From Parasulfuritortus cantonensis (lineage in GTDB: Bacteria; Pseudomonadota; Gammaproteobacteria; Burkholderiales; Thiobacillaceae), in NCBI RefSeq assembly GCF_004337445.1, contig NZ_SJZB01000022.1:1-64000 (forward strand): a DNA stretch of 64,000 bases, written 5' to 3'. Position numbers and translations under genes: made by a program. The notes beneath the pieces were generated by a model, which made no database searches, was not told where the DNA came from, and worked only from the letters and a program-made list of their open reading frames with translations. Positions 8,928 through 24,264 of this stretch are shown here, one piece after another. Numbering within the stretch: position 1 is the stretch's first letter; each line of letters starts with the position of its first letter.

Positions 8928-10655
8928 TTACAGAACGATGCCCGGGTTGTTCTTCGGGATACCGACCACCTTGGGCTGGTTGAGCTTGAGGCCCTTGATG
9001 ACCTTCTTGTCGCGCAGGTACTCGGCCACCACTTCCCAGACCGGCGCGCCCTGCGCGCCCTCGGCCACCGGTGCCCAGCCGGCTACCTTGTAGGTCTTGT
9101 CCGGATCGACCGGCTTGCCGTTCAGGGTCATGTCGCTGATGCGGTGGCCGATGGTCTTGGTCGGATCGACCGTATAGTGGATGCCGCCGACGCGCACCAT
9201 GTCGCCGCCCTGCTGGTAATACGGATCCGGGTTGAACAGGTTGTCGCAGACGTCCTCCATGATGTTCTTGATCATGGTCCCCTTCATCGGGGTCAGGGTG
9301 GACTGCGGGTAGGTGATGGCGGTCTGGTCCATCAGCTTTTCCATGGTGATGGATTCGCCCGGCAGGATCGTGGTGCCCCAGCGGAAGCCCGGCGAGAAGC
9401 CGGCGTCGGCACCCTTGACCGCCATGATGGCATCCAGGATGAGTTGGTCCCAGGTACCGTTGAAGTTGCCGCGGCGATAGAGGAAATCGTCCGACACCGC
9501 GAGGACCTCGTTCAGCTTGCTCTCGTAGGGCGCGCGGATCTTCTGGATCAAGGCATCCATCTTGGCGTCGGCGGCCAGGAAGTTGGCGAACACGGGCAGC
9601 AGGCGATACTTCCAGCCCTTGACCTTGCCGTCCTTGACCTCGAAGTCCATGACGCCGAGGAACTTGCCGTTCGAGCCGGCGTTGGTGACCAGGCAGGTGC
9701 CGCCGTCGGGAGTCTTCACCGGGACCGGCTGGTAGACGCCGTCATGGGTGTGGCCGCCGAAGATGGCATCGACGCCGTTGACGCGGCTGGCCATCTTGAG
9801 GTCGACGTCCATGCCGTTGTGGGACAGGACGACGACCACCTTGGCACCCTTGGCGCGGGCCTCGTCGACCCACTTCTGCATGCTGTCGTCGCGGATGCCG
9901 TAGGACCAGTCCGGCACCATGTAGCGCGGGTTGGCCACCGGGGTGTAGGGGAAGGCCTGGCCGACCACGGCGACGGTGACGCCGTTGATCTCGCGCAGGG
10001 TGTAGGGCTTGAACACCTGGTCGCCGAAGTCGTTGGTGACGATGTTCTGGGCGACGAAGTCGAGGCCGGCCTTCTTGAAATCGTTGTTGACGATCTCCTG
10101 GACGCGGTCGGCACCGTAGGTGGCTTCCCAGTGCGGAGTCATCACGTCGACGCCGAGGGCGATGCAGGCGTCGACCATGTCCTGGGCGTTGGTCCACAGC
10201 GCGGTGGCGGAACCCTGCCAGGTGTCGCCGCCGTCGAGCAGCAGGCAGCCGGGGCGCGAGGCGCGCACCTGGTCGACCAGCGTCTTCAGGTGGGCGAAAC
10301 CGCCGACCTTGCCGTAGGTCTTCGCGGCGGTCTGGAAGTCCAGGTAGGTGAAGGCATGGGCGTCGGCCGTGCCGGGCTTGAGGCCGTAGTGCTTGAGGAA
10401 GTGGGTCCCCACCAGGTGCGGCACCTTGCCGGCCATGGAGCCGACGCCGAGGTTGACGTTGGGCTCGCGGAACCAGATCGGCAGCAGCTGGGCATGGGTG
10501 TCGGTGATGTGCATGAACGACACGTTGCCGGCCGGCGGCGCATCGTAGTAGCCGGCCGGCAGGGTGCCGGCCAGCACGGCGCGGCTGTCCAGGACCAAAC
10601 CGGAAGCCGCCGCGGCGGCCAGGACCTGCAGGAATTCACGACGACTCATGGACAT
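8928..10655 (-). CDS. soxB: SoxB thiosulfohydrolase
   Basis: Periplasmic dimanganese hydrolase that releases sulfate from the sulfur-loaded SoxY cysteine during thiosulfate oxidation. The 575-residue protein starts with a twin-arginine signal (SRREFLQ). Metallophosphatase motifs are present: HITDTHAQ (residues 49-56), DGGDTWQG (141-148), LSHNGMD (277-283) and GGHTHDG (300-306). A 5'-nucleotidase C-terminal domain follows. A GAGAGGAAG site precedes the ATG at 10655. It is the last gene of soxXYZAB, separated from soxA by a 221-bp gap with hairpins. Confidence 0.97.
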   Translation of the reverse strand: MSMSRREFLQVLAAAAASGLVLDSRAVLAGTLPAGYYDAPPAGNVSFMHITDTHAQLLPIWFREPNVNLGVGSMAGKVPHLVGTHFLKHYGLKPGTADAHAFTYLDFQTAAKTYGKVGGFAHLKTLVDQVRASRPGCLLLDGGDTWQGSATALWTNAQDMVDACIALGVDVMTPHWEATYGADRVQEIVNNDFKKAGLDFVAQNIVTNDFGDQVFKPYTLREINGVTVAVVGQAFPYTPVANPRYMVPDWSYGIRDDSMQKWVDEARAKGAKVVVVLSHNGMDVDLKMASRVNGVDAIFGGHTHDGVYQPVPVKTPDGGTCLVTNAGSNGKFLGVMDFEVKDGKVKGWKYRLLPVFANFLAADAKMDALIQKIRAPYESKLNEVLAVSDDFLYRRGNFNGTWDQLILDAIMAVKGADAGFSPGFRWGTTILPGESITMEKLMDQTAITYPQSTLTPMKGTMIKNIMEDVCDNLFNPDPYYQQGGDMVRVGGIHYTVDPTKTIGHRISDMTLNGKPVDPDKTYKVAGWAPVAEGAQGAPVWEVVAEYLRDKKVIKGLKLNQPKVVGIPKNNPGIVL

Positions 10656-10750
10656 GGGTAGCTTCCTCTCGATTGTCTCCGGCTGCAGGCATCCGGCAGC
10701 CGCTACGCTGGATCATCCCGGCTGCGCCGCATTCGGGTGCGATACGCGGA

Positions 10751-10829
10751 CCGGGCCGGAGGCCCGGAGGTACCGACGCTGCGGTGCAACCGATCGATAT
10801 TCTCAAAAGAACCGGGCCCGCAGGCCCGG
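10751..10829 (-). promoter_or_regulatory. Paired hairpins between soxA and soxB
   Basis: Two hairpins share the same arms, CCGGGCC and GGCCCGG, at 10751-10767 and 10812-10829. In the minus-strand transcript the first one met (10812-10829) is followed by TTCTTTT, resembling a weak terminator or RNA-processing site. It could lower soxB expression relative to soxXYZA. Confidence 0.45.
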
Positions 10830-10876
10830 CCTCACACGACCCCGCCGTCCATCCGGACGGACAGGGCCCAGGGGCA

Positions 10877-11716
10877 TTACTTGCGGAACACCGAGGACTT
10901 CAGTTCCATGCCGTTGGACAGGTAGGAATGGAAGTACTCCAGGTTGTTGAAACGGGTGCTGCCTTCCTTGTCCGGCACCTGACGAACCTGCTTGAAGCAG
11001 CCCGAGTAGCGCTTTTGCAGGGTGGTCGGCACGTCGCCGCCGTCCTTGCCGCGGAACACCGGGAAGTGGGTCGCCTGGCCGAGCACCGGCGACAGGATTT
11101 CCGAACGCAGGTTGTTGCCGGCGGCGTCGATGTGGCAGGACGCGCAGGAGAAGTTGAGCTGGCCGGCGCGGGCGTAGTAGGTTTTCTTGCCGTCCTCGAA
11201 GGCCTTGAGCGCGGCCGGGCTGTCGACCTTGATGTTCATCTTCATGCCGTCGGACAGGGTGCGGGCATACGAGGTCAGCACGCCCATGGTCTTCATGTCG
11301 TCGTACTTGTACGGCTCTTCGCCGTTGGCGACGCGGCAATCGTTGATGGCATCCTCGAAGGTCACGACCTTGCCCTTGGCTTCGTCGAACATCGGGTAGT
11401 TGCCGGCGATCATCTTGCCGCCGTTGGGCAGGCAGTCGGCGTAGGTCTTGCCGCTCTTGAACGGCGTGTCCCACATCTTCTTGCCCTTGTCGAGCACCTC
11501 GACGAAGGGCGGGAATTCCATGATGCTGTCGTACTGGGACTTGGAGTCCGGACTGAACGCCAGGGCACCGTAGATGTAGTCATCAATCTTGATGTCCGAA
11601 TACTTGTTCTTGAAGTAGTTGATCAGCTTGGTGCGGTCGTCCTCGGGACCCGCAACAGCCGACACCGAACCCAGGACGATGCCAGCCCCGGCCAAAATCA
11701 TAATCAGTTTCTTCAT
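10877..11716 (-). CDS. soxA: SoxA, c-type cytochrome subunit of SoxAX
   Basis: With SoxX it forms the SoxAX complex that links thiosulfate to the SoxY cysteine in the periplasm. The 279-residue protein has a signal peptide (about residues 1-22) and one haem motif, CASCH at 191-195. The usual N-terminal haem motif of dihaem SoxA is missing. Cys95 and Cys127 stand in that region and probably form a disulfide, so this is the monohaem type. Cys240 in RYSGC is the likely distal haem ligand, normally modified to a persulfide. The start is the ATG at 11716, behind a GGAGGAC site. Confidence 0.95.
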   Translation of the reverse strand: MKKLIMILAGAGIVLGSVSAVAGPEDDRTKLINYFKNKYSDIKIDDYIYGALAFSPDSKSQYDSIMEFPPFVEVLDKGKKMWDTPFKSGKTYADCLPNGGKMIAGNYPMFDEAKGKVVTFEDAINDCRVANGEEPYKYDDMKTMGVLTSYARTLSDGMKMNIKVDSPAALKAFEDGKKTYYARAGQLNFSCASCHIDAAGNNLRSEILSPVLGQATHFPVFRGKDGGDVPTTLQKRYSGCFKQVRQVPDKEGSTRFNNLEYFHSYLSNGMELKSSVFRK

Positions 11717-11776
11717 GCCGTCCTCCAGATGGACGCGGCCGCCGGCTGGCGCCGGCCGGCCCGCGTCGATTTCCAA

Positions 11777-12088
11777 TCAGCCGATGTCGGCTTCAGCGCT
11801 ATCCTTCTCGCCCTTGTTGTCCAGGGTCTCGATCACGACCTTGTCGCCCGCCTTGGCACCCTTCACCTTGAACGCCAGGTACGGGTTCTTGGAAATGCCG
11901 CCGCCCCACTGCGCGTCCAGCACCACCTTGCCACCCACCGTCGCCGTCACGTTCGTGATGTGGTGCGCCGGCACGATCTCGCCCGTCTTCGCATCCTTGC
12001 GCAGACCCGTCTCCATCACGTGGTTCATCAGCGCCTTGATCTCAGCAACATCTCCGGCCATCGAGGCACGAATCTTCATCCCAGCCAT
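11777..12088 (-). CDS. soxZ: SoxZ, partner of the SoxY sulfur carrier
   Basis: A 103-residue immunoglobulin-like protein that pairs with SoxY to carry sulfur intermediates. The conserved stretch HHITNVTATVGGK, the segment GGGISKNPYLAF and the absence of a signal peptide fit SoxZ, which is exported with SoxY through the Tat pathway. It follows soxY by 29 bp and precedes soxA by 60 bp. Confidence 0.96.
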   Translation of the reverse strand: MAGMKIRASMAGDVAEIKALMNHVMETGLRKDAKTGEIVPAHHITNVTATVGGKVVLDAQWGGGISKNPYLAFKVKGAKAGDKVVIETLDNKGEKDSAEADIG

Positions 12089-12117
12089 CTTGTCTTCCTT
12101 TCTCTATCCGTTGCCGA

Positions 12118-12588
12118 TCAGCCGCCGCAGCCACCAATGGTGACCTTGACTTCCTTCGCCGCCTTGTAAACCTTGCCGCCAGCCTTCACGACCGCAACAA
12201 CGTTCGACGTCGCTCCCATCTTGATCCGCGTCGACACGTAGCCTTCCGCTCCGTTCTGCAGACCAAAATCGGCAATCAGCGGAAAACCGTTCTTCTCCGC
12301 CAGAATGATGATGTGTTCCGTGCCCGGAATCGCCGAAATCACTTCCACAGGCACCACCGCGCCGTTCTCGGCAATGTCCGGCGCCTTCACCGTGATCTGG
12401 CCGCTGTCCGCGCCGCCACTCGCTCCCTCGCTCGACAGCGCACCCGCCATATCCTTGGCCTCGAACGCCGCCTTGTTCCACCCGGCCGCCCATACCGTCC
12501 CCGGCTTCAGCAGCCCGGCCGCCGCCGCCACCGTCACCACACTGGCGGCACCCGCGCCCTTCAGGATACTTCTACGTTGTTCGTTCAT
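12118..12588 (-). CDS. soxY: SoxY, sulfur carrier protein
   Basis: The periplasmic carrier to which sulfur substrates are bound during Sox oxidation. The 156-residue protein begins with a Tat-like signal (QRRSILKGAGA) and ends with the swinging-arm tail IGGCGG, whose Cys154 carries the intermediates. The ATG at 12588 is chosen because GGAGTGGAG lies upstream; a longer in-frame form is less likely. It lies 26 bp after soxX. Confidence 0.97.
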   Translation of the reverse strand: MNEQRRSILKGAGAASVVTVAAAAGLLKPGTVWAAGWNKAAFEAKDMAGALSSEGASGGADSGQITVKAPDIAENGAVVPVEVISAIPGTEHIIILAEKNGFPLIADFGLQNGAEGYVSTRIKMGATSNVVAVVKAGGKVYKAAKEVKVTIGGCGG

Positions 12589-12614
12589 CTCCACTCCTTC
12601 CACGCTTTTGGATG

Positions 12615-12977
12615 TCACAGGCCGTAGACGAAATCGACGACCTTGTCGATTTGCTCCTCGGTCAGCGCCTTGTGCTTGCCGAACGGGGGCATGATGGTAT
12701 TGGGATTGGTCGCCGTGGCGTCCCAGATCTTGGCGCGCATCACCTTCTTGTCCGGGAAGCGAGCACTCATGGCGATCAGGGGCGGGCCGCTGTTGCCGGG
12801 CTGTTCGGCATCGGGCATCGTGGGCATCGCATGACAGGCCAGGCAGTTGCCCTTGCTGCTGTTGTAGGCGATTTCCTTACCGGTCTCTTCCTTGGCCGGG
12901 TCCGCAGCCAGGGCGACGTTGATACCCAGCGCGGCGAGCAAAGCCAAGCCGGTACCGACGGAAACAAGATTCCGCAT
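12615..12977 (-). CDS. soxX: SoxX, c-type cytochrome subunit of SoxAX
   Basis: A 120-residue secreted monohaem cytochrome c. A signal peptide of about 25 residues is followed by the haem motif CLACH at 45-49. A GNSGPPL segment follows, and an IMPPFG segment holds the likely methionine ligand (Met97). It pairs with SoxA. The ATG at 12977 has a strong GGAAGGAGAG ribosome binding site. It is the first gene of the operon; the upstream gap carries two candidate operator sites. Confidence 0.93.
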   Translation of the reverse strand: MRNLVSVGTGLALLAALGINVALAADPAKEETGKEIAYNSSKGNCLACHAMPTMPDAEQPGNSGPPLIAMSARFPDKKVMRAKIWDATATNPNTIMPPFGKHKALTEEQIDKVVDFVYGL

Positions 12978-13050: not shown

Positions 13051-13068
13051 CAACGCATCTACAACTAT

Positions 13069-13093
13069 ATGTCAGACTAATTTACTCGGGCAA
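13069..13093. promoter_or_regulatory. IscR/Rrf2-like dyad upstream of soxX
   Basis: The core GACT-AATTT-ACTC closely follows the GACT-N5-AGTC core of the type 1 IscR consensus as I recall it, with one mismatch in the right half. About 19 of 25 positions agree. It is about 92 bp upstream of the soxX ATG. Better copies occur ahead of tusE/dsrC and sodB. Confidence 0.4.
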
Positions 13094-13130
13094 GCAGTAC
13101 ATTCATACGCACGCCGCGCGGCGGTCCCGG

Positions 13131-14549
13131 TCAGGGTTTGGCCTCGCGCTGCTGACGTTCGCGCAACTCGCGCAGGCGGGCGTCGACCATGGACATGGTG
13201 TAGAAGTCGCCGTCCCCCGCCTGACGGGCGAGCTGGAGTTGCTCCATCGCCTGCGCCGGCTGGTCGAGCCGGATGTGCGCCTCGGCCTGGGCCAGATGGC
13301 CCTCGGAACGCTTGCCCAAGGCATGATCGCTTTCCGCCAGCAGGCGGTAGAGGACGTCGTCGTCGTCCCAGGCGCGCAGCTTTTCCGCCACGTAGCTCTT
13401 CGTGTCCGCCGCGCGGCCGACCCGGAGCAAGGCCCGGGCATAGTCGTATACCAGCGGGCGGTAGTTCGGGTACTTGGCCAGGCCCGCCTTCAGGATGTCC
13501 ACCGCCTTGGCCGGCTGGCCGGTTTCCTGACGCAGGCGCGCGGCCAGGGTGACCGCCATGGGCGAGGTCAGCTCCGGCTGGACCTGGTTGAAGGCCTTGA
13601 CCGCGGTATCGCGCTCGCCGACCCGCAAGGCCGCCAGGACGAAGCCGTAACGGGTCGCGGCGTCGCTCTGCTTGCTGGCGGCCAGGACTTTGAAGTGCTT
13701 GTAGGCGTCGTCCGGCTCGCCGGCCGCGGCCTGGACGCGCGCGCGCACGAGCTGGAAGTCGAGGCTGTCCAGATGCTGGCGGTAGGGCAGCTCGCTGAGC
13801 CGGTTCTGCAGGTCGGCCATGCGCTCGTAGGTCAGCGGGTGGGTGCGCAGGTAGGCCGGCGCCTTGCTCTCGTACAGGCGGCCGTTCGCCTGCAGGCGCT
13901 CGAAGAAGCTGGCCATGCCGGCCGGGTCGTAGCCGGAATCGGACAGGGTCTGCAGGCCGATCCGGTCGGCCTCGCGTTCGTGCTCGCGGGTGTAGTCGAG
14001 CTGATTCTGGATCGACATGGCCTGGGCGGTGGTCACCGCCGCCTGGGCGATCTGGGCATTGTCCGAACGGGCCGCCAGGATGGCCACGGCCAGCGCCGCC
14101 AGGGTGGTCAGGGTGGAGCCCTTCTGGGCCGCGACGATGCGCGCGATGTGGTTCTGGGTGACGTGGGAGATTTCGTGCGCCAGTACCCCCGCCAACTCGG
14201 ATTCGTTGCGCACCGCCGAGATCAGGCCGGTGTGCACACCGATGTAGCCGCCCGGCAGGGCGAAGGCGTTGATCGATGCGTCGCGGACCACGAAGAACTC
14301 GAAGTGGCGGTACGGCGCCGGACTGGCCGCGACGAGCTGGCGGCCGAGCCGGTTGATGTAGTCGGTGGTCTCGGGGTCGTCGAGAAAATCCTTGTCGCCG
14401 CGGATCTGGCGCATGGCCTCGGCGCCGATCTGCGCCTCCTGGGCCTCGCTCATGGTCGCGCGCGCCGACTCGCCCAGGTCGGGCAGTTCGGAGGCATACG
14501 CCGGAGCCAGCAGCCAGCTGAGCAAGATCAAGGTGACGAGGCGTTTCAT
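13131..14549 (-). CDS. bepA: BepA-type M48 metalloprotease with TPR repeats
   Basis: A periplasmic zinc protease and chaperone for outer-membrane protein assembly (BepA/YfgC family). The 472-residue protein has a signal peptide (cut near residue 20), the zinc motif HEISH at 125-129 and the third ligand region EHEREADRIG near 191-200. Tetratricopeptide-like helices fill the C-terminal half. The ATG at 14549 starts the signal peptide; the open frame reaches further upstream but that part overlaps moaC and is not protein-like. It is divergent from moaC, 40 bp away. Confidence 0.92.
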   Translation of the reverse strand: MKRLVTLILLSWLLAPAYASELPDLGESARATMSEAQEAQIGAEAMRQIRGDKDFLDDPETTDYINRLGRQLVAASPAPYRHFEFFVVRDASINAFALPGGYIGVHTGLISAVRNESELAGVLAHEISHVTQNHIARIVAAQKGSTLTTLAALAVAILAARSDNAQIAQAAVTTAQAMSIQNQLDYTREHEREADRIGLQTLSDSGYDPAGMASFFERLQANGRLYESKAPAYLRTHPLTYERMADLQNRLSELPYRQHLDSLDFQLVRARVQAAAGEPDDAYKHFKVLAASKQSDAATRYGFVLAALRVGERDTAVKAFNQVQPELTSPMAVTLAARLRQETGQPAKAVDILKAGLAKYPNYRPLVYDYARALLRVGRAADTKSYVAEKLRAWDDDDVLYRLLAESDHALGKRSEGHLAQAEAHIRLDQPAQAMEQLQLARQAGDGDFYTMSMVDARLRELRERQQREAKP

Positions 14550-14589
14550 CCGGCTATGATAACCACCATTCCAACCAGGTTCCCCAGCC

Positions 14590-15072
14590 ATGAATGGATT
14601 TACGCACTTTAACGAAGACGGCCAGGCGGTCATGGTCGACGTCGGTGCCAAGGCCGAAACCCGGCGCGTCGCGGTGGCGGCCGGCCGCATCGTCATGCGT
14701 CCTGAGACCCTGGCCATGATCCGCGCCGGCGACGCCAAGAAGGGCGACGTCCTCGGTGTGGCGCGGATCGCCGGCATCATGGCGGCAAAGCGCACGGCCG
14801 ACCTGATCCCGCTCTGCCACCCCATCGCCCTCACCAAGGTTTCCGTGGATTTCCGGGTCGACGCCGAGGCCAACGCCGTCGAATGCGCCGCCACGGCGGA
14901 GACGTTCGGCCGCACCGGGGTCGAGATGGAGGCGCTGACGGCGGCCGGCGTCGCCCTGCTGACCGTCTACGACATGTGCAAGGCGGTGGACCGGGGTATG
15001 GTCATCGAGTCGGTCAGGCTGCTCGAGAAGCAGGGCGGCAAGTCGGGCCACTGGCGGGCCGACGCCGGCTGA
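14590..15072 (+). CDS. moaC: MoaC, cyclic pyranopterin monophosphate synthase
   Basis: Acts with MoaA in the first stage of molybdenum cofactor synthesis, forming cyclic pyranopterin monophosphate. The 160-residue protein has the signature [12 protein letters not shown] at 67-78, [10 protein letters not shown] at 109-118 and the catalytic Asp128/Lys131 in [10 protein letters not shown]. Length is normal. It stands alone, divergent from bepA and convergent with the small secreted protein gene. Confidence 0.97.
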
Positions 15073-15090
15073 GCGGCCCGGCCGCGAGGC

Positions 15091-15396
15091 TTACTTGATG
15101 CGCCCCATGAAGCGCATCACCTTGCACGGGTCGCCGTCGAACAGGACGGTGTTCTTGGGCGGCAGGGTGACGTGGCGCTCCGCGGCGCGTTTCTGCAACT
15201 CCGCCTCGTGGGCGGCGGTGTAGGTCTCGCATTCGTCGAAAGTGTGGAAGGACTGCATCCTGGCGACGTGCGCCTGACGCTCCTCCGGCGTCATCAGCTC
15301 GGCACCCCGGAAGCCATCGCCACTGGCATAGGACGGAAAGGCGTGGGCGGCCGGGCTGGCCATGATTACAAACAACAAGGCGATCGCGCGCTTCAT
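15091..15396 (-). CDS. Small secreted protein, unknown function
   Basis: A 101-residue protein with a clear signal peptide (cleavage after AHA near residue 19). The mature part is charged, with a MTPEERQAHVARMQ helix, and has two cysteines (near residues 56 and 91) that could form a disulfide. Similar short secreted proteins occur in betaproteobacteria, but I know of no function. A terminator lies upstream between it and the tusE/dsrC gene, so it has its own promoter. Confidence 0.7.
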   Translation of the reverse strand: MKRAIALLFVIMASPAAHAFPSYASGDGFRGAELMTPEERQAHVARMQSFHTFDECETYTAAHEAELQKRAAERHVTLPPKNTVLFDGDPCKVMRFMGRIK

Positions 15397-15416
15397 CTTT
15401 CGACACTCCGGAAATG

Positions 15417-15441
15417 AAAAAGGCCCCGCTCGGGCGGGGCC
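15417..15441 (-). terminator. Terminator after tusE/dsrC
   Basis: On the minus strand, GGCCCCGC and GCGGGGCC pair around a four-base loop, followed by TTTTT. It lies about 40 bp beyond the tusE/dsrC stop codon. Confidence 0.9.
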
Positions 15442-15480
15442 AGTGTAGCGCGAAAGGCGGCGCCGCGACTTACGCGGTGT

Positions 15481-15813
15481 TTAAACGCAGCCGGTCGGCT
15501 TCGGCGTGCCGGCGTAGCGGCCGGCCTGCTTGGCGGGGCCGAACGGGAACAGGTCGAAGAGGAACTTCTTCTCGCCCCATTCGTCGCCGAACTCCTCCTT
15601 CAGGCCCTTCTGCAGGAAGCGCAGGTTGGGCGCGGTGCCGTACTCGTGAAAGTACTCGCGCATGTAGTTGATGATCTTCCAGTGATTCTCGCCCAGCTCC
15701 AGCTTGTCCTGGCCGGCCAGGTATTCGGCGACCTCGTCGGACCAGTCCTCCAGGTTGACCAGATAGCCCTCGGGATCGGTTTCCACGATCCGGCCGTTGA
15801 CGTTCAGTTCCAT
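15481..15813 (-). CDS. TusE/DsrC family sulfur carrier
   Basis: A 110-residue cytoplasmic protein of the DsrC/TusE/DsvC family, which shuttles sulfur as a persulfide on a C-terminal cysteine. The tail AGTPKPTGCV carries the penultimate Cys109. The second conserved cysteine of true DsrC (eleven residues earlier) is Gly98 here. The protein is therefore TusE-like or an alternative DsrC homologue that cannot form the intramolecular disulfide used with sulfite reductase. No dsrAB or tusBCD is in the window. The ATG at 15813 is backed by GAGAGGAAA. Upstream is the best IscR/Rrf2-like site in the window. Confidence 0.88.
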   Translation of the reverse strand: MELNVNGRIVETDPEGYLVNLEDWSDEVAEYLAGQDKLELGENHWKIINYMREYFHEYGTAPNLRFLQKGLKEEFGDEWGEKKFLFDLFPFGPAKQAGRYAGTPKPTGCV

Positions 15814-15877
15814 GTCATTTCCTCTCTTCACCCGTTTATCGAAGTCCAGCAGACACTGGCATGGCCCGCACATTACA

Positions 15878-15902
15878 TAAGCCGACTAATTAAGTCAACT
15901 AT
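15878..15902. promoter_or_regulatory. IscR/Rrf2-like operator upstream of tusE/dsrC
   Basis: The core GACT-AATTA-AGTC is a perfect dyad and about 22 of 25 positions fit the type 1 IscR consensus as I recall it. It is 65 bp upstream of the tusE/dsrC ATG and about 97 bp before the alpha-2-macroglobulin gene on the other strand, so it could control either. Confidence 0.55.
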
Positions 15903-15998
15903 TCGATACTGGAAAACAAGGTCATCGTGGAAATCGTGCAACCGTCACCGAGCTGGGCGCACAATGCGCCCTGACAAGACTAAGAAGGAGGTCACACG

Positions 15999-18900
15999 AT
16001 GCGCACAGCCTGGTCCCTGCTCGCCGCCTTCCTGTTGGTGAGCGCCGCCCACGGCGCCGGCCTGGAATCGTTCACCCCGCAGGGCGTGGTCAGCCAGGTA
16101 CGCCAGGTCCAGGCCCGGTTCGACGGCGCCATGGCGCCGCTCGGCAAGGCCGACACGCCGGCGCCGTTCACGGTCGAGTGCGCGCCCGGCCAGGGCTACT
16201 GGGCCGATGAACGGACCTGGGTCTACGACTTCGCCGCCACGCCGGCACCCGGCACCGCCTGCTCGTTCACCGTGCGTACCGGCCTGACCAGCCTCGCCGG
16301 CGAGGCCATCCCCGGCGCCAGCTACGGCTTCCGCTTCGCCGGTCCCCAGGTCGTCCAGATTCTCCCCGACAACGATGCCCGGGTGGACGAGAACCAAGCC
16401 TTCGTCGTGGTCTTCGATGGCCCGGTCGACGAGGCGACGCTGACCGGCCACGGCCACTGCGCCGTCGAGGGCATCTACGAGCGCATCCCCATCCGGCGCC
16501 TGTCCGGCCAGGCCCGCGCGACCCTGGTCAAGGAATGGCAGGCTCGCCGCTACGACGCCGACGGCATTCCCGCCGAGCGCGTCGAAGTGGTCCAGTGCGC
16601 CCGCCCGCTGCCGGCCAATGCCAAGCTGGCACTGGTGTGGCAACGCCCGGACAGCGACGCCGTGCAGTCCTTCGAATTCACCGTGCGCGACCAGTTCGTC
16701 GCCCACCTGCGCTGCACGCGCGAGAACGCCCGGGCCGGTTGCATGCCGCTCGAGCCGGTGCGGGTCGAGTTCACCGCCCAGGTGGCGCGCGACGTCCTCG
16801 ACCGCATCAGCCTGACCGACGCGGCCGGCAAACGCTACGCCCGCGAGCCGGACGACGATCCGACCGGCGACCGGGTGACCTTCCCCGGCCCCTTCCCGCC
16901 GGACGCCAAGCTCACCCTGAGCCTGCCGGACAAGCTGACCGACGACGCCGGCCGCGCGCTGCTCAACCAGGACCGCTTCCCGGTCACCGCCGCGGTCGCG
17001 GAACTGCCGCCGCTGGTCAAGTTCAGCGGCGACTTCGGCATCATCGAACGCCATGCCGGCGGCCTGCTGCCGATCACCCTGCGCAACCTGGAACCCGGCG
17101 CCGGCGGCACCGGCGCCAAGATTCGCTGGCTGCGCCTGGACCAGGACAAGGACATCGCCGACTGGTGGCGGCGCCTGCATGATTTCGACAATCCACGCGA
17201 ATACCCGCCGCCCGACCGGCGTTCCGAGCGCCTGCTCGATGCCGCCCTGCCCGGCCTCGCCGAGCGGACCCTGCCGAAACCGAACGGCGCCAAGGAGTTC
17301 GAGATCGTCGGCCTGCCCCTGGAGAAGCCCGGCTACTACGTCCTGGAGGCGGAAAGCCGTTACCTCGGCCGCTCCCTGCTCGGCGCCGACAAACCGATGT
17401 ACGTGCGTGCCGCCGCCCTGGTCACCAACCTGGCCGTGCACTTCAAATGGGGCGCGAAGAACTCGCTCGCCTGGGTCACCAGCCTGGACCAGGGCCAGCC
17501 GGTGGCCGGCGCCCGCATCGCCGTGAACGACTGCAAGGGCACCCTCCTGGCCAAGGGCGTCACCGACGCCAAGGGCATGGCCTTCATACCGGCCGGCGTT
17601 CCCGACCCGCGTGCCGCGCAATGGGACTGCCCGCTCCTGGTCAGCGCCCGGACCGGCGACGACCTCGGCTTTGCCCGCTCGGACTGGGACGACGGCATCG
17701 AGAGCTGGCGTTTCAACCTGCCCTCCGACTGGCGCCAGGACGACCGCCTCGCCCACAGCGTGCTCGACCGCAGCCTGTTCAAGCCAGGCGAGACCGTGCA
17801 CATGAAGCACATCCTGCGCGACAAGCGCCTGGCCGGACTCGGCTACCCGAAGAACCTGCCCAAGACCCTGATGATCGAGCACGAGGCCAGCGGCCAGCGC
17901 TGGTTCCTGCCCCTGACCTGGCAGGCCGGTGCCGCGGTCGACGAGTGGCGCATCCCGGCCACGGCGAAACGCGGTGCCTACGGGCTGCGCCTGGTCGATG
18001 CCGAGGTCAAGGCGGACACGCCGCCGGAACGCCTGCAATACCTGTCCGGCCTGGACAGCGGCCGCTTCACCGTGGCCGACTTCCGGGTGCCCCTGATGAA
18101 GGCGGCCCTGAATCCCGTGCGACCGGACCTGACCGCCGCCGCGAATGCCGAGGAGGACGTCTCGGTGGCCTACCTGAACGGCGGCGCCGCCAAGAACCTG
18201 CCGGTACGCCTGCGCGCCCAGATGAGCCCGCGCCACGGCGTCAGCTTCGCGGCCTGGCCGGACTACGTCTTCGCCCAGCCGGCCGACGGCAGCGACGACG
18301 AGGCCGACCAGACCCTCGATGCCGACCCGCTCACCCTCGACGCCGGCGGTGCCGGGCGCGGCCGCGTCGTCGGCATTCCGGCGCGCGCCTACCCGCAGCA
18401 GTTGGCCGTCGAACTGGAGTACACCGACCCGAACGGCGAGATCCAGACCGTATCGCGGCGCCAGAACTGGTGGCCGGCCGACGTCGTGGTCGGCTTCAAG
18501 CGCCCGGACTGGGTCAAGGCCGGCACCCGGACCACCCTGGAGTTCGCCACCGTCGACACGGCCGGCAAGGCGCTCGCCGGCATCCCGGTCTCGGTCCATC
18601 CGGTCGCCCGCCGCCACCTCGGCTACCGGGTCCGCCTGGTGGGCGGCTTCTACGGCTACCGAGAGGAGACCCAGGACACCCCCCTGGAAGGCGAATGCAG
18701 CGGCGTCAGCGATGCCGGCGGCCATTTCGCCTGTACCGTGACCGCCCCGGCCGGCGGCCAGATCATCGTCGGCGCCGAGGCGCGCGACCCGGCCGGCCGG
18801 CTCGCCGTCGGCCATGCCAGCCTGTGGGTGGCGGGCCGCGACGAGTGGTGGTTCGACCAGGAAAACCACGACCGCATCGACCTCCTGCCCGAGAAGAAGA

Positions 18901-21506
18901 CCTACGCCGCCGGGGAGACCGCCCGCTTCCAGGTACGCATGCCGTTCCGTTCCGCCACCGCCCTGGTGACGGTCGAGCGCGACGGCATCCTGGACGCCCG
19001 AGTGGTACCCCTGTCCGGCCAGGCGCCGGTGCTCGAACTGCCGGTCTCCGCCAGTTGGGCGCCCAACGTCTACGTCTCCGCCCTGGTCGTGCGCGGGCGC
19101 GTCGACGCCGTCGCCCCGACCGCCTTCGTCGACCTCGGCAAGCCGGCCTACAAGCTCGGCGTCGCCGGCATCGAAGTCGACCAGCGCGGCCACCGCCTGG
19201 ACGTCCGCGTGACGCCCGAGCGCGACACCTACCAGACCCGCGACCAGGCCAAGGTCCGGCTCGCGGTCAAGACCGCCGACGGCAAGCCGTTGCCCGCCGA
19301 CACCCAGGTGATCGTCGCCGCGGTCGACGAGGGCCTCCTCGAACTGGCCGACAACAAGAGCTGGGACCTGCTGCCGGCCATGATGGCGGAACGCGGCTAC
19401 GCCATGCGCACCTTCACCGCGCAGTCCCAGGTCACCGGCAAGCGCCACTTCGGCAAGAAGGCGCTGCCCGCCGGCGGCGGCGGCGGCCGTTCGCCGACCC
19501 GCGAGCTGTTCGACACCCTGCTGTACTGGAACCCGGCCGTGAAGCTCGACAACAAGGGCGAGGCGACGGTCGCCATCCCGCTCAACGACAGCCTGACCCG
19601 CTTCCGCATCGTCGCCGTGGCCGCCTCCGAGAGCCGTTTCGGCACCGGCTGGTCCGGCATCCGGGCCACCCGCGACCTCCAGATCAGTGCCGGCCTCGCC
19701 CCCCTGGTGCGCGAAGGCGACCGCATCGAAGCCCATTTCACGGTCCGCAACGGCACCGCCCGCACCATGCGCATCGCCATGGGTGCCCAGGCCTCGGGCC
19801 TGGGCGTGCTGGCGCCCCAGCGCTTCGAACTGGCACCCGGCGACGGCAAGGAGGTCAGCTGGCCGATCACCGTCCCGGCCGGGCGCGAGCGCCTGGACTG
19901 GTACGTCAACGCGCGCGACCTGGACAGCCGGGCCCTGGATGCGGTCAAGGTCGGCCAGGCCGTGCAGCCGGTCCAGCCGGTGCGCCTCGTGGCCGGCCAG
20001 TTGTACCGGCTCGACAAACCGCTCGACCTGCCGGTGGCGGCGCCCGACGACGCCATCCCGGGCCGCGGCGAGCTGCGCGCCACCCTGGCGGCCAGCCTGG
20101 GCGGCAGCCTGGTCGGGGTGCGCGAATACATGCGCCGCTACCCCTATGCCTGCCTGGAGCAGAAGACCTCCAAGGCGGTCGCCGGCCACGACACCAAGGC
20201 CTGGGACGAACTCATGGAGGCCCTGCCCGGCTATCTGGACGGCGACGGCCTGGCCGCCTACTTCCCCGGCATGAACCGCGGCAGCGTGGCGCTCACCGCC
20301 TACCTGCTGTCGATCAGCCAGGCCGCCGGCTACGCGGTGCCGGCGGCGCCGCGCCTGCGCATGGAGGCGGCCCTGGCCAACTACCTGGCCGGACGCCTGG
20401 AACGGCCGGCCGGGCTACTGCCCAGCCGCGCCGACGGCGCCCTGCGCCTGGCCGCCCTGGCCGCCCTGGCGCGCGCCGGCAAGGCGGGGCCGGAACTGGT
20501 CGCGACGGTCAAGCCGAGCGCCAACCTGTGGCCGGCCGGCATGCTGATCGACTGGATCGACGTCCTCAAGCGCACGCCCGCCGTGCCCGAGCGCGACGCC
20601 AAGCTGGCCGCGGCCGAGACCGCCCTGCGTTCCCGCCTGACCTACACCGGCAGCCGGCTCAACTTCGGCGACGACGGCGCCTGGTGGCTCATGGGCTCGG
20701 CCGACGGCAACGCCGTGCGCGGCCTCCTGGCGGTGCTCGACCGGCCCGGCTGGCAGACCGACCTGCCCCGGCTGATGGCTGGCGCCCTGGCCCGCCAGGC
20801 GCGCGGCCACTGGGACACCACGACGGCGAACGCCTGGGGCAGCGTGGCGCTCGACCAGTACGGCGCCCGCTTCGACAAGGTCAAGCCGACCGGCAAGAGC
20901 ACCGCCTACCTGGGCAAGACCGGCCGCGTGGTCGACTGGCAGGCCAACCCGAACGGCGCCAGCGCCGCCTTCCCGCTGCCCGCCCAGCCCACCACCCTGA
21001 AACTGCGCCATCAGGGCAAGGGCGCGCCCTACGTGAACGTCACCACGCTGGCCGCCCTCGACCTCAAGGCACCGGTGGCGCGCGGCTACACGGTGCGCCG
21101 CGAGCTGGTCCCGGTCGACCAGAAGACGCCGGGCGAGTGGCACCGGGGCGACATCGTCCGGGTGCGCCTGACCGTGGATGCCCGCGACGACATGGGCTGG
21201 GTGGTCATCGACGACCCGGTGCCGGCCGGCGCCAGCATCCTGGGCGGCGGGCTCAAGCGCGACTCGGCCATCCTGACCGGCGACGAGAAGCAGGCCGGCG
21301 ACGCCTGGCCGGCCTGGCAGGAACGCCGCTTCGACCGCTTCCAGGCCTACTACGAGTACGTCCCGCGCGGCCAGCTGAGCCTGGAATACACCTTCCGGCT
21401 CAACAACGAAGGCCGCTTCGCCCTGCCCGCCACCCGGGTCGAGGCGATGTATGCGCCGGAGATGTACGGCGAGACGCCCAATGCGGCGATCGTGGTACTG
21501 CCTTAG
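15999..21506 (+). CDS. Bacterial alpha-2-macroglobulin with thioester
   Basis: A 1835-residue periplasmic protease-trapping protein of the YfhM/MagD class. A signal peptide (about residues 1-19) lacks a lipobox cysteine, so membrane anchoring by lipid is not evident. MG-type beta domains follow, then a bait-like glycine-rich segment near residues 1160-1166. The thioester motif CLEQ begins at Cys1385. Such proteins are thought to trap attacking proteases when the outer membrane is breached and work with PBP1C, encoded by the next gene, which overlaps its 3' end. AAGGAGG precedes the ATG. Confidence 0.93.
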   Translation: MRTAWSLLAAFLLVSAAHGAGLESFTPQGVVSQVRQVQARFDGAMAPLGKADTPAPFTVECAPGQGYWADERTWVYDFAATPAPGTACSFTVRTGLTSLAGEAIPGASYGFRFAGPQVVQILPDNDARVDENQAFVVVFDGPVDEATLTGHGHCAVEGIYERIPIRRLSGQARATLVKEWQARRYDADGIPAERVEVVQCARPLPANAKLALVWQRPDSDAVQSFEFTVRDQFVAHLRCTRENARAGCMPLEPVRVEFTAQVARDVLDRISLTDAAGKRYAREPDDDPTGDRVTFPGPFPPDAKLTLSLPDKLTDDAGRALLNQDRFPVTAAVAELPPLVKFSGDFGIIERHAGGLLPITLRNLEPGAGGTGAKIRWLRLDQDKDIADWWRRLHDFDNPREYPPPDRRSERLLDAALPGLAERTLPKPNGAKEFEIVGLPLEKPGYYVLEAESRYLGRSLLGADKPMYVRAAALVTNLAVHFKWGAKNSLAWVTSLDQGQPVAGARIAVNDCKGTLLAKGVTDAKGMAFIPAGVPDPRAAQWDCPLLVSARTGDDLGFARSDWDDGIESWRFNLPSDWRQDDRLAHSVLDRSLFKPGETVHMKHILRDKRLAGLGYPKNLPKTLMIEHEASGQRWFLPLTWQAGAAVDEWRIPATAKRGAYGLRLVDAEVKADTPPERLQYLSGLDSGRFTVADFRVPLMKAALNPVRPDLTAAANAEEDVSVAYLNGGAAKNLPVRLRAQMSPRHGVSFAAWPDYVFAQPADGSDDEADQTLDADPLTLDAGGAGRGRVVGIPARAYPQQLAVELEYTDPNGEIQTVSRRQNWWPADVVVGFKRPDWVKAGTRTTLEFATVDTAGKALAGIPVSVHPVARRHLGYRVRLVGGFYGYREETQDTPLEGECSGVSDAGGHFACTVTAPAGGQIIVGAEARDPAGRLAVGHASLWVAGRDEWWFDQENHDRIDLLPEKKTYAAGETARFQVRMPFRSATALVTVERDGILDARVVPLSGQAPVLELPVSASWAPNVYVSALVVRGRVDAVAPTAFVDLGKPAYKLGVAGIEVDQRGHRLDVRVTPERDTYQTRDQAKVRLAVKTADGKPLPADTQVIVAAVDEGLLELADNKSWDLLPAMMAERGYAMRTFTAQSQVTGKRHFGKKALPAGGGGGRSPTRELFDTLLYWNPAVKLDNKGEATVAIPLNDSLTRFRIVAVAASESRFGTGWSGIRATRDLQISAGLAPLVREGDRIEAHFTVRNGTARTMRIAMGAQASGLGVLAPQRFELAPGDGKEVSWPITVPAGRERLDWYVNARDLDSRALDAVKVGQAVQPVQPVRLVAGQLYRLDKPLDLPVAAPDDAIPGRGELRATLAASLGGSLVGVREYMRRYPYACLEQKTSKAVAGHDTKAWDELMEALPGYLDGDGLAAYFPGMNRGSVALTAYLLSISQAAGYAVPAAPRLRMEAALANYLAGRLERPAGLLPSRADGALRLAALAALARAGKAGPELVATVKPSANLWPAGMLIDWIDVLKRTPAVPERDAKLAAAETALRSRLTYTGSRLNFGDDGAWWLMGSADGNAVRGLLAVLDRPGWQTDLPRLMAGALARQARGHWDTTTANAWGSVALDQYGARFDKVKPTGKSTAYLGKTGRVVDWQANPNGASAAFPLPAQPTTLKLRHQGKGAPYVNVTTLAALDLKAPVARGYTVRRELVPVDQKTPGEWHRGDIVRVRLTVDARDDMGWVVIDDPVPAGASILGGGLKRDSAILTGDEKQAGDAWPAWQERRFDRFQAYYEYVPRGQLSLEYTFRLNNEGRFALPATRVEAMYAPEMYGETPNAAIVVLP

Positions 21507-23553
21507 CCTGGCCTGGCTGGCCGGCGCCGCCCTGGCGGCGCCGCCCGCCTTCGACCAGGTCCGCGCGGGCTGGCAGTCGTCCGAGGCCAAGCTGTTCGAC
21601 CGCCACGGCGAGCTGATCCAGGAATTGCGCCTGGAACGCCAGGTCCGGCGTACCGACTGGACCGCCCTGGCGGACGTCTCGCCGGCCATGCAGGGCGCCG
21701 TCCTGCTCGCCGAGGACCGGCGCTTCTTCGAGCACGCCGGGGTCGACTGGCTGGCCGCCACCAAGGCCGCCCTGACCAACTGGCTGGCGGCGCGGCCGCG
21801 CGGGGCCTCGACCATCAGCATGCAGGTCGCCGCCCTGGTCGACCCCGACCTGGCGGCCCGCTCGGGACGCCGCAGCGTCACGGAAAAATGGCGCCAGATG
21901 CAGGCCGCCGACGCCCTCGAGGCCCGCTGGAGCAAGGCGCAGATACTCGAGGCCTACCTCAACCTGACCGGCTTCCGGGGCGACCTGGTCGGCGTCGACA
22001 GCGCCAGCCGCGCCCTGTTCGACAAGCGCCCGGCCGGCCTGGGCACGACCGAGGCGCTCATCCTGGCGGCCCTGATCCGCGCCCCGGCGGCGCCCCCGGA
22101 CCAGGTCGCCCGGCGTGCCTGCCAGCTTGCCGGGGCCCTGCCCGGCGGTCCCGACTGCGGCACCGTCAGGCGCCTGGCGCGCAACAGCCTGACCGGACGC
22201 TACCCGGTCGTCGCGGCCGCCGACTTGGCGCCCCACCTGGCCCATCGCCTGCTCGAACGCCCCGGCGAGCGGGTCACCAGCAGCCTCGACGCCGGCCTGC
22301 AGCGCCAGGTCCGCGCCATCCTGGCCGAACAACTGGGCGTCCTCGCCGAGCACCAGGTCCAGGACGCCGCCGCCCTGGTCGCGGACAACCGCACCGGCGA
22401 GGTGCTCGCCTACGTCAGCCTGAGCGGCGCCGAATCGATCTCGCCGCACAGCGACGGCGTCGCCGCGCCGCGCCAGGCCGGGTCCACCCTGAAGCCGTTC
22501 CTGTACTCCCTGGCCCTGGAACGCCGCTACCTGACCGCCGCCTCGCCCCTGGCCGACCGCGCCCTGGCCGTGGCCACGGCCGGGGGCAACTACGCGCCGG
22601 AGAACTACGACCGCCGCTTCCGCGGCCTGGCCAGCGTGCGCACCGCCCTGGCCGGCTCGCTCAACATCCCGGCCGTGCGCACGCTGGAACTGGTCGGTGC
22701 CGACCTGTTCGCCGAACGCCTGGCCGGCCTCGGCTTCGCCGGCCTGACCGAGGCCGCCGACTTCTACGGCCCCTCCCTGGCCCTGGGCAGCCTGGACGTC
22801 AGCCTGTGGCAGCTGGTCGGCGCCTACCGCGCCCTGGCCAACGGCGGCCGCTACGGCGAACTCAGCCTGCGACCCGGCGCGGCGCCGAGCCACCGGGTGG
22901 TCGACCCGGCCGCCGCCTACGTGGTCGCCGACATCCTGGCCGACCGGGTCGCCCGGGCCGGCACCTTCGGGCTCGAGAACGTCCTCGCCCTGCCCTGGTG
23001 GAGCGCGGTGAAGACCGGTACCAGCAAGGACATGCGCGACAACTGGTGCATCGGTTTCTCGGACCGCTACACGGTCGGCGTCTGGGTCGGCAACTTCTCG
23101 GGCGAGCCGATGCACGACGTCTCCGGGGTATCCGGCGCAGCGCCGGCCTGGCGCCTGATCATGGAGCGCCTGCACGCCGGGCGTCCGGCCCGGGCACCGA
23201 AGCCACCCGCGCGCCTGGTCCGGGCCGAGATCGCCCCGCCCGGCGAGGCCAGGCGCGCCGAGTGGTTCCTCGCCGGCACCGAGCCCGGCGCCCGGACTTG
23301 GACCCCGGCGCAACCGCCGGTGGCCATCGAGCAGCCCGGCGACGGCGACATCCTGGCCCTCGACCCGGACATCCCGGCGCCGTCCCAGCGCCTGACCCTG
23401 CGGGCCCCCGGCGCCCCGGCCGGGAGCCGCTGGCAGATGGACGGCGCCGACTGGCCGGCCGACACTTGGCCGCTCCGGCGCGGCCGCCACCGCCTGGCCC
23501 TGCTCGACGCCGCTGGCGCCGCGCTCGACCAGGTCGAGTTCGAGGTACGCTAG
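21481..23553 (+). CDS. pbpC: Penicillin-binding protein 1C
   Basis: A bifunctional peptidoglycan glycosyltransferase/transpeptidase-like protein of the inner membrane. The ATG at 21481 gives a 690-residue product with a clean N-terminal signal anchor; an in-frame ATG at 21451 is the alternative. The glycosyltransferase motif EDRRFFEHAGVD has its catalytic Glu near 78, followed by GASTISMQ. The transpeptidase has the Ser-x-x-Lys box STLK at 335-338 and a KTGTS box near 511. The C-terminal BiPBP_C domain typical of PBP1C is present. It overlaps the alpha-2-macroglobulin gene, matching the conserved pair. Confidence 0.93.
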   Translation: MRRSWYCLSLAWLAGAALAAPPAFDQVRAGWQSSEAKLFDRHGELIQELRLERQVRRTDWTALADVSPAMQGAVLLAEDRRFFEHAGVDWLAATKAALTNWLAARPRGASTISMQVAALVDPDLAARSGRRSVTEKWRQMQAADALEARWSKAQILEAYLNLTGFRGDLVGVDSASRALFDKRPAGLGTTEALILAALIRAPAAPPDQVARRACQLAGALPGGPDCGTVRRLARNSLTGRYPVVAAADLAPHLAHRLLERPGERVTSSLDAGLQRQVRAILAEQLGVLAEHQVQDAAALVADNRTGEVLAYVSLSGAESISPHSDGVAAPRQAGSTLKPFLYSLALERRYLTAASPLADRALAVATAGGNYAPENYDRRFRGLASVRTALAGSLNIPAVRTLELVGADLFAERLAGLGFAGLTEAADFYGPSLALGSLDVSLWQLVGAYRALANGGRYGELSLRPGAAPSHRVVDPAAAYVVADILADRVARAGTFGLENVLALPWWSAVKTGTSKDMRDNWCIGFSDRYTVGVWVGNFSGEPMHDVSGVSGAAPAWRLIMERLHAGRPARAPKPPARLVRAEIAPPGEARRAEWFLAGTEPGARTWTPAQPPVAIEQPGDGDILALDPDIPAPSQRLTLRAPGAPAGSRWQMDGADWPADTWPLRRGRHRLALLDAAGAALDQVEFEVR

Positions 23554-23588
23554 CCCGGCCCGCCAATACCCCTGATCCGACATGACAA

Positions 23589-23613
23589 ATAGTTTACGGT
23601 AATAGTCAACTAT
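23589..23613. promoter_or_regulatory. IscR/Rrf2-like operator upstream of sodB
   Basis: Outer arms AATAGTT and AACTATT are a perfect inverted repeat around a right-hand AGTC core. About 23 of 25 positions fit the type 1 IscR consensus as I recall it, though the left core reads TACG instead of GACT. It is 67-91 bp upstream of the sodB ATG. Confidence 0.55.
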
Positions 23614-23679
23614 TGCCGTGGCCAGGCGATGCCCTTAGAATCCTGACCGCAGCGTTCAATTACTCACCGGAGATACGAT

Positions 23680-24264
23680 ATGGAACACCAACTGCCCGCC
23701 TTGCCCTACGCCAAGGACGCCCTGCAACCCTACATGTCCGCGGAGACCTTCGACTACCACTACGCCAAGCACCATCAGGCCTACGTCACCAACCTGAACA
23801 ACCTGATCAAGGGCACCGACTTCGAGAGCAAGTCCCTGGAAGAGATCGTCAAGACGGCGCCGGCCGGCGGCATCTACAACAACGCCGCCCAGGTCTCCAA
23901 CCACACCTTCTTCTGGAACTGCATGAAGCCGAACGGCGGCGGCGCCCCGACCGGTGCCCTGGCCGACGCCATCAACGCCAAGTGGGGTTCCCTGGACGAG
24001 TTCAAGAAGGCCTTCCAGACCAGCGCCGTGGGCAACTTCGGCTCCGGCTGGACCTGGCTCGTGAAGAAGGCCGACGGTTCCCTGGACATCGTCAACATGG
24101 GCGCCGCCGGCACCCCCCTGACGACCGCCGACAAGCCGCTGCTCTGCGTCGACGTCTGGGAACACGCCTACTACATCGACTACCGCAACCTGCGTCCGAA
24201 GTTCGTCGAGACCTTCCTGGCCAGCCTGGTCAACTGGGACTTCGTCGCCGCCAACTTCGCCTGA
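23680..24264 (+). CDS. sodB: Iron superoxide dismutase
   Basis: Dismutes superoxide to oxygen and hydrogen peroxide in the cytoplasm. The 194-residue protein has the four metal ligands in YHYAKHHQAY, NHTFFWNC and DVWEHAYY. The glutamine in AAQVSNHTF is typical of the iron-dependent type. No signal peptide. An IscR/Rrf2-like site and a purine-rich ribosome binding site precede it; a hairpin lies about 94 bp after the stop. Confidence 0.97.
   Translation: MEHQLPALPYAKDALQPYMSAETFDYHYAKHHQAYVTNLNNLIKGTDFESKSLEEIVKTAPAGGIYNNAAQVSNHTFFWNCMKPNGGGAPTGALADAINAKWGSLDEFKKAFQTSAVGNFGSGWTWLVKKADGSLDIVNMGAAGTPLTTADKPLLCVDVWEHAYYIDYRNLRPKFVETFLASLVNWDFVAANFA

Follow-up and report, generated by a model that had tools for sequence, protein, structure and literature searches.

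A shared IscR type 1-like site before a TusE/DsrC-like gene, sodB and, less securely, soxX in Parasulfuritortus cantonensis

In this article, I discuss three short dyads in a 64,000-nucleotide stretch of Parasulfuritortus cantonensis DNA (assembly GCF_004337445.1, contig NZ_SJZB01000022.1, positions 1 to 64,000 of the forward strand), called the window below. One lies before soxX and the sox genes that follow it, one before the gene for a TusE/DsrC-like sulfur relay protein and one before sodB, with 91 base pairs (bp) between site and start codon at soxX (start 12977), 64 bp at the TusE/DsrC-like gene (start 15813) and 66 bp at sodB (start 23680); they are numbered sites 1, 2 and 3 in that order (Table 1). 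A first-pass annotation had picked out all three as a shared IscR/Rrf2-like dyad, and each of the sequences that it gave is found in the window where it was said to be. The full 25-bp motif is the type 1 motif of IscR, whose consensus in Escherichia coli and Pseudomonas aeruginosa is a 25-bp dyad, ATASYYGACTRWWWYAGTCRRSTAT (PMC3899308; this paper, PMC6966769, PMC8262890, PMC10451225, PMC11475020 and PMC12594620 are cited here from excerpts). Sites 1, 2 and 3 agree with the published E. coli consensus at 19, 22 and 23 of 25 positions, more than any other place in the window; one further place reaches 18 and five reach 17, and the two putative P. aeruginosa sites (PMC3899308) reach 17 and 20 of 25 by the same count. 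The GACT-N5-AGTC core by which the annotation had joined the three is exact in site 2, carries one mismatch in site 1 and has a degenerate left half in site 3; the perfect outer arms ascribed to site 3 are there, though its left core is poor.

A 12-site scoring matrix was built from sites all outside the window, picked by eye from 30 candidate places in the genome, an assembly of 3.22 Mb in 54 contigs that is 88% complete. The window sites at 15878 and 23589 were held back for testing, the soxX site was not among the 30, and C23:5275 (intragenic), C34:19060 (a perfect hairpin, terminator-like) and 14 further places with poor arms or cores by eye, three of them inspected for gene context, were also left out. 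Since this choice was made by eye, the consensus-only count given above and a four-site test were added. The 12-site matrix gives sites 1, 2 and 3 scores of 18.8, 23.9 and 26.0 bits. Its next non-overlapping match in the window stands at 7.7, and the highest score in 40 first-order random sequences as long as the window is 14.9; a matrix of the four sites before iscR, cysE, apbC and a DUF971 gene returns the same top three (18.1, 22.8 and 23.5 bits; next non-overlapping place 11.4). Six megabases of first-order random sequence hold no place at 18.7 bits. A stricter null model, trained on upstream DNA that is AT-rich and contains the motif, yields 23 places at 18.7 bits and one at 23.8 in 3 Mb, which by my arithmetic amounts to about 0.001 site 1-like scores per 150-bp upstream region; site 1 on its own is therefore just moderately significant, and sites 2 and 3 are statistically secure.

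Table 1. Sites, putative promoters and genes of the window, with the basis of each assignment.
Feature	Positions	Strand	Sequence	Basis or remark
Site 1, IscR type 1-like	13069-13093	-	ATGTCAGACTAATTTACTCGGGCAA	Before soxXYZAB; spans -35 and spacer of the putative soxX promoter
Site 2, IscR type 1-like	15878-15902	-	TAAGCCGACTAATTAAGTCAACTAT	Before the TusE/DsrC-like gene; left arm (gene orientation) has -35-like TTGACT
Site 3, IscR type 1-like	23589-23613	+	ATAGTTTACGGTAATAGTCAACTAT	Before sodB, abutting its -35
Putative soxX promoter	13064..13093	-	TTGCCC-18-TATAGT	Consensus scan; TATAGT/TATATT-like -10 in five of seven aligned relatives
Putative sodB promoter	23613..23641	+	TTGCCG-17-TAGAAT	Consensus scan; kept in an alignment of ten sodB upstream regions
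soxX, first gene of soxXYZAB	12615..12977	-		NCBIfam TIGR04485, 94.3 bits (cut-off 61)
soxY, soxZ, soxA, soxB	8928..12594	-		TIGR04488, TIGR04490, TIGR04484, TIGR04486, each above its own cut-off
TusE/DsrC-like sulfur relay gene	15481..15813	-		TIGR03342, 132.8 bits (cut-off 53.5)
sodB, probably Fe-type superoxide dismutase	23680..24264	+		Best NCBIfam model SOD [Fe], 318.9 bits, under the equivalog cut-off of 348

The regulator of iron-sulfur (Fe-S) metabolism that such sites call to mind is encoded in the same genome, as the annotation had supposed. Two Rrf2 proteins exceed the family cut-off, and one of them, IscR (Rrf2 domain PF02082 at 136.6 bits, cut-off 30), is encoded in the order cysE-iscR-iscS-iscU-iscA with type 1 sites at C24:5176 and C24:6040, and carries the four cluster ligands C92, C98, C104 and H107 (positions after PMC3899308) as well as all five DNA contacts S40, Y41, E43, Q44 and R59 (residues listed in PMC11475020). 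The pattern ATANYYGAYTANNNTARTCRRNTAT, searched with up to three mismatches, occurs at 14 places in this genome, two window sites and two probable false matches among them, against 0 for the reversed pattern; with up to two mismatches, it occurs at 101 places in 51 genomes against 1 reversed, and in the 31 genomes of the family at 88 against 0 (sums of rows in both cases). A scan of the whole genome, proposed together with the original claim, did find sites before iscR, cysE-iscR, apbC and other Fe-S genes: the own-genome sites adjoin iscR, cysE(-iscR), the gene for an ApbC/Mrp ATPase, the DUF971 gene (GBBH-like N), the dsrA/DUF6967 intergenic region and a second DsrC-like gene, and also a desulfoferrodoxin-like gene, FolE2, clpX (named, like dsrN and dsrP below, by eye from the translation), an ankyrin-like gene and two small open reading frames. 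A site outside the training set, at 19.6 bits, lies shortly beyond the end of the window, 11 bp upstream of the gene for an RnfB-like multi-Fe-S protein (L048 4398-4422; G000:C12:66397-66421).

Conservation was followed through the 51 genomes, with up to 30 best loci taken per gene. IscR is present at E <= 1e-30 in 47 of them, and the positive control, the site upstream of iscR, reaches at least 15 bits in 29/29 loci, all with 100 bp or more of upstream DNA (a thirtieth locus was dropped). Site 2 exceeds 12 bits at 24 of 30 TusE/DsrC-like loci and reaches at least 15 bits at 24 of 29, the six misses being five homologs at 50-53% identity and one locus with 13 bp upstream. The sodB site exceeds 12 bits in 20/30 loci, and the count at 15 bits or more is again 20/30. 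A further IscR-type site, scoring 33.1 bits (L045 2875-2899; G000:C43:9374-9398), lies between dsrAB and divergent DUF6967, Cas6-domain and DsrC-like genes, and a site upstream of dsrA exceeds 12 bits at 20 of 30 loci and reaches at least 15 bits at 18 of 30, two of them doubtful; the match in G026, an AT-rich stretch with a poor dyad, is included in these counts. Where present, this site is separated from the divergently oriented DUF6967 gene by 26-40 bp and from dsrA by roughly 200-225 bp (the exceptions being G026 and G044, where DUF6967 was not found), distances that cannot decide which of the two genes it could serve. Column-permuted decoy matrices, 200 in number, never reached the real counts for the TusE/DsrC-like gene (dsrC), sodB or dsrA (0/200 each), their maxima at 15 bits or more being 5 TusE/DsrC-like, 6 sodB, 3 soxX and 5 dsrA loci. 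In a named collection of 80 TusE/DsrC-like loci, 79 of them with upstream DNA, a site of at least 15 bits precedes 69 of the 79, a total made up of 44/44 homologs at 78% identity or more, 25/29 at 58-70% and 0/6 below 57%, and the random-sequence control reaches 15 bits in 15 of 1580 cases. The six most distant homologs may be paralogs or distant orthologs, the more distant of the named matches are largely Rhodocyclaceae, Sulfuritalea and Sulfurisoma, and the relatives in which site 2 is near-invariant are probably Thiobacillaceae. Random placement of the pattern, lack of an Rrf2 regulator and lack of conservation, the three outcomes named beforehand as fatal to the shared-site claim, are thus not what was found for the TusE/DsrC-like and sodB sites, whereas the soxX site is weakly conserved.

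The three dyads are probably type 1 binding sites of the genome's own IscR, a [2Fe-2S] repressor of Fe-S cluster assembly, whose cluster-bound form would leave them on oxidation. In a reduced cell with ample Fe-S clusters, IscR in its cluster-bound form would occupy the sites, and at the TusE/DsrC-like gene and soxX, where the site appears to cover the -35 and the spacer, this should keep RNA polymerase out. Oxidation or loss of the cluster, through oxygen, superoxide or Fe-S demand, would release IscR, and the genes would rise together with iscRSUA; release by oxygen or superoxide would thus raise the TusE/DsrC-like gene, and sox too if its site is real. Site 3 ends on the first base of the putative sodB -35, and because it sits just upstream of that element, IscR could either repress or activate sodB. 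Work on E. coli reports that IscR binds type 1 sites less well once its cluster is oxidized and that superoxide breaks the cluster down (PMC12594620), and at the isc promoter of P. aeruginosa, the putative sites overlap the promoter and the authors infer repression (PMC3899308). Among the 69 named TusE/DsrC-like promoters with a site, a -10-like hexamer (at least 4/6) follows the in-site -35-like hexamer by 17 bp in 35, against 2 and 7 at the neighbouring offsets; other spacers with counts are 12 bp, inside the motif itself, with 47, and 15 bp with 14. In about half of these promoters, the site therefore seems to overlap the predicted -35 and spacer. Sequence, regulator gene, promoter-like overlap and conservation are observed, the conservation being firm for sites 2 and 3 and weak for site 1; I infer the binding, its dependence on the cluster-bound form, its sign and its signal. 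The annotation had gone on to propose that one regulator couples sulfur oxidation to oxidative stress, which is partly supported, through the TusE/DsrC-like gene, sodB and perhaps dsr more than through sox; a common IscR-type site is well supported as a prediction.

Several findings weigh against assigning these genes to IscR. The protein itself scores 206.8 bits with TIGR02010, 0.75 bits short of a cut-off of 207.55 that is a naming threshold and no defining feature, and a promoter scan at the window's TusE/DsrC-like gene gave none over threshold. sodB is without a site in 10/30 loci, same-genus G006 and G021 included; the dsrA upstream site is absent in same-genus G003 and G006 and in G014; and the second DsrC-like gene, which has a site in 7 of its 8 best-matching loci and 7/30 in all, lacks one in its closest ortholog (G005, 86%). 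Not all pattern matches are IscR sites, either: C23:5275 lies within a gene whose reading frame there (NSRLEKS) is kept in G002, and C34:19060 (L043 3061-3085) is a perfect 10-bp inverted repeat between dsrP-like and dsrN-like genes that looks like a terminator or processing hairpin more than an operator. The soxX site, lastly, exceeds 12 bits in 5/30 loci and reaches at least 15 bits in 3/30, a count of 3 that is equalled by 1 of the 200 decoy matrices, and one soxX-upstream match (G044) is an AT-rich stretch with a poor dyad that was yet counted in the totals.

Site 1 is thus the weakest of the three, and its conservation fades even within the genus, where it consists of weak matches in three genomes (13.1 bits in G004, 12.8 in G002 and a different, 15.6-bit match in G005). 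Either the site is young or decaying, or the match is due to chance, and the idea that it is a chance product of promoter elements (a TTG... -35, the spacer and a TATAGT -10), with sites 2 and 3 genuine, comes close to an even bet. That idea would account for the weak conservation across loci and for the genus alignment, in which five of seven relatives retain the -10 and the dyad survives partly, in G004 and G002, and the rate at which upstream-like random DNA reaches the same score also speaks for it. However, two matrices and the published consensus all still place site 1 third in the 64 kb, and CCGAG-N-AAATT in its left half is kept in both G004 and G002.

A serious, if less favoured, alternative is that IscR here runs an ordinary regulon, not specially tied to sulfur oxidation, in which the TusE/DsrC-like protein is a housekeeping relay, for tRNA thiolation or for sulfur supply to Fe-S clusters, and sodB a usual target. 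The DsrC of the dsr operon is defined by two conserved C-terminal cysteines, and in 13 aligned TusE/DsrC-like proteins the penultimate cysteine is the sole one of the pair; with PRK11508, the E. coli TusE equivalog model, the window protein scores 104.6 against a required 191, and judged by its sequence it is a TusE/DsrC family member that is not filed as TusE. Several of the own-genome sites do precede Fe-S assembly genes, and in Yersinia sodB is a direct IscR target (PMC8262890). The likeness to that case is IscR at the sodB promoter, whereas the excerpt describes a type II site and expression that fits repression by apo-IscR, and the site here is type 1-like and lies beside the -35. What counts against an ordinary regulon is that sites also occur at other DsrC-family genes, upstream of dsrA and perhaps before sox. 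Moreover, all 44 close named homologs keep the site, and many of the named records come from Thiobacillus, Sulfuritalea or Sulfurisoma, which are sulfur oxidizers. The genome holds six DsrC/TusE-family matches, the five listed being C12:15484, C43:5146, C43:10392, C8:22131 and C1:29190; of these, the C12 and C1 genes are preceded by IscR-type sites, and the one at C43:10392 belongs to a run starting at DUF6967. Among 12 loci inspected in other genomes, the TusE/DsrC-like gene is divergent from sodB in G003, G005 and G025, with two sites in the common intergenic region, and a neighbouring gene for a protein of 121-123 residues in G003, G004, G005, G009 and G015 has its own site of 16-25 bits in all but G015; this gene has a DsrC-family match in G003, G004, G005 and G015, and that in G009 is similar by eye.

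It is improbable that a regulator other than IscR binds these sites. The obvious candidate is the second of the two Rrf2 proteins found in this 88% complete genome (C13:22328-22717), which has three cysteines and one histidine at the IscR ligand positions, but it is 28% identical to IscR and was rejected, as a RirA-like or other Rrf2 regulator of these genes, for its lack of S40, E43 and Q44, and the same motif precedes iscR itself in every one of the 29 control loci. Chance likeness of AT-rich promoter DNA at all three places is scarcely credible, for although the bare GACT-N5-AGTC core with up to one mismatch shows no enrichment (8 occurrences in the window where 14.3 are expected; 17 across the genome against 11 for the reversed pattern) and was dropped as a signal, the full-motif statistics, the decoy matrices and the conservation of sites 2 and 3 speak against it.

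If IscR does hold these genes, a wider reading can be put forward tentatively, and I regard it as rather doubtful at present: IscR may govern sulfur energy metabolism globally in the Thiobacillaceae and in sulfur-oxidizing Betaproteobacteria related to them, reaching several DsrC-family carriers, the reverse dissimilatory sulfite reductase locus, sox in some lineages and superoxide defence. Sulfur oxidation would then answer to Fe-S cluster and redox status as well as to sulfur compounds, and an IscR input would link sulfur flow both to oxidative damage and to the need for Fe-S clusters, which DsrAB and its partners contain. Two described repressors of sulfur oxidation, SoxR and sHdrR, are ArsR-type sensors of sulfane sulfur (PMC10451225); they too control sox and sulfur carrier genes, but they sense through two cysteines, whereas IscR, from a separate protein family, senses cluster status and redox. 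With the IscR systems of E. coli and P. aeruginosa (PMC3899308), the present one has in common the 25-bp dyad, the promoter-like overlap, a regulator encoded with iscSUA, the cluster ligands and E43, and it differs in its predicted targets, which add TusE/DsrC-family genes, sodB by a type 1-like site, the dsrA upstream region and possibly sox. An in silico network for Acidithiobacillus thiooxidans assigned IscR to 8 of its 22 predicted operons for oxidizing reduced sulfur compounds, although that is an affinity-based prediction in which eight regulators are spread over the same operons (PMC6966769). Apart from that network, a literature search that covered mostly titles and the starts of abstracts, and few subscription journals, brought up no description of IscR sites at DsrC-family, dsr or sox genes; two papers that mention both IscR and dsrC use an E. 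coli iscR deletion as expression host (PMC7596348, PMC6067878), and both names occur in the expression tables of PMC11267869. The regulator is known and the content of the regulon appears unreported, and the site before the TusE/DsrC-like gene offers a conserved and directly testable candidate for regulation of that protein.

Three further genes outside the window deserve mention. Beside dsrAB, at L045 3184-3711 and adjoining the DsrC-like gene there, lies a gene whose product has a Cas6 Pfam domain (131.9 bits). folE2 has its IscR-type site about 48 bp upstream (L035 2504-2528, G000:C7). The desulfoferrodoxin-like gene, with a superoxide reductase domain (L033 2529-3011, G000:C4), has one at C4:9028, about 60 bp upstream, and since a superoxide-reductase-like gene was found in 1 of the 51 genomes, this one, conservation offers no test of that site.

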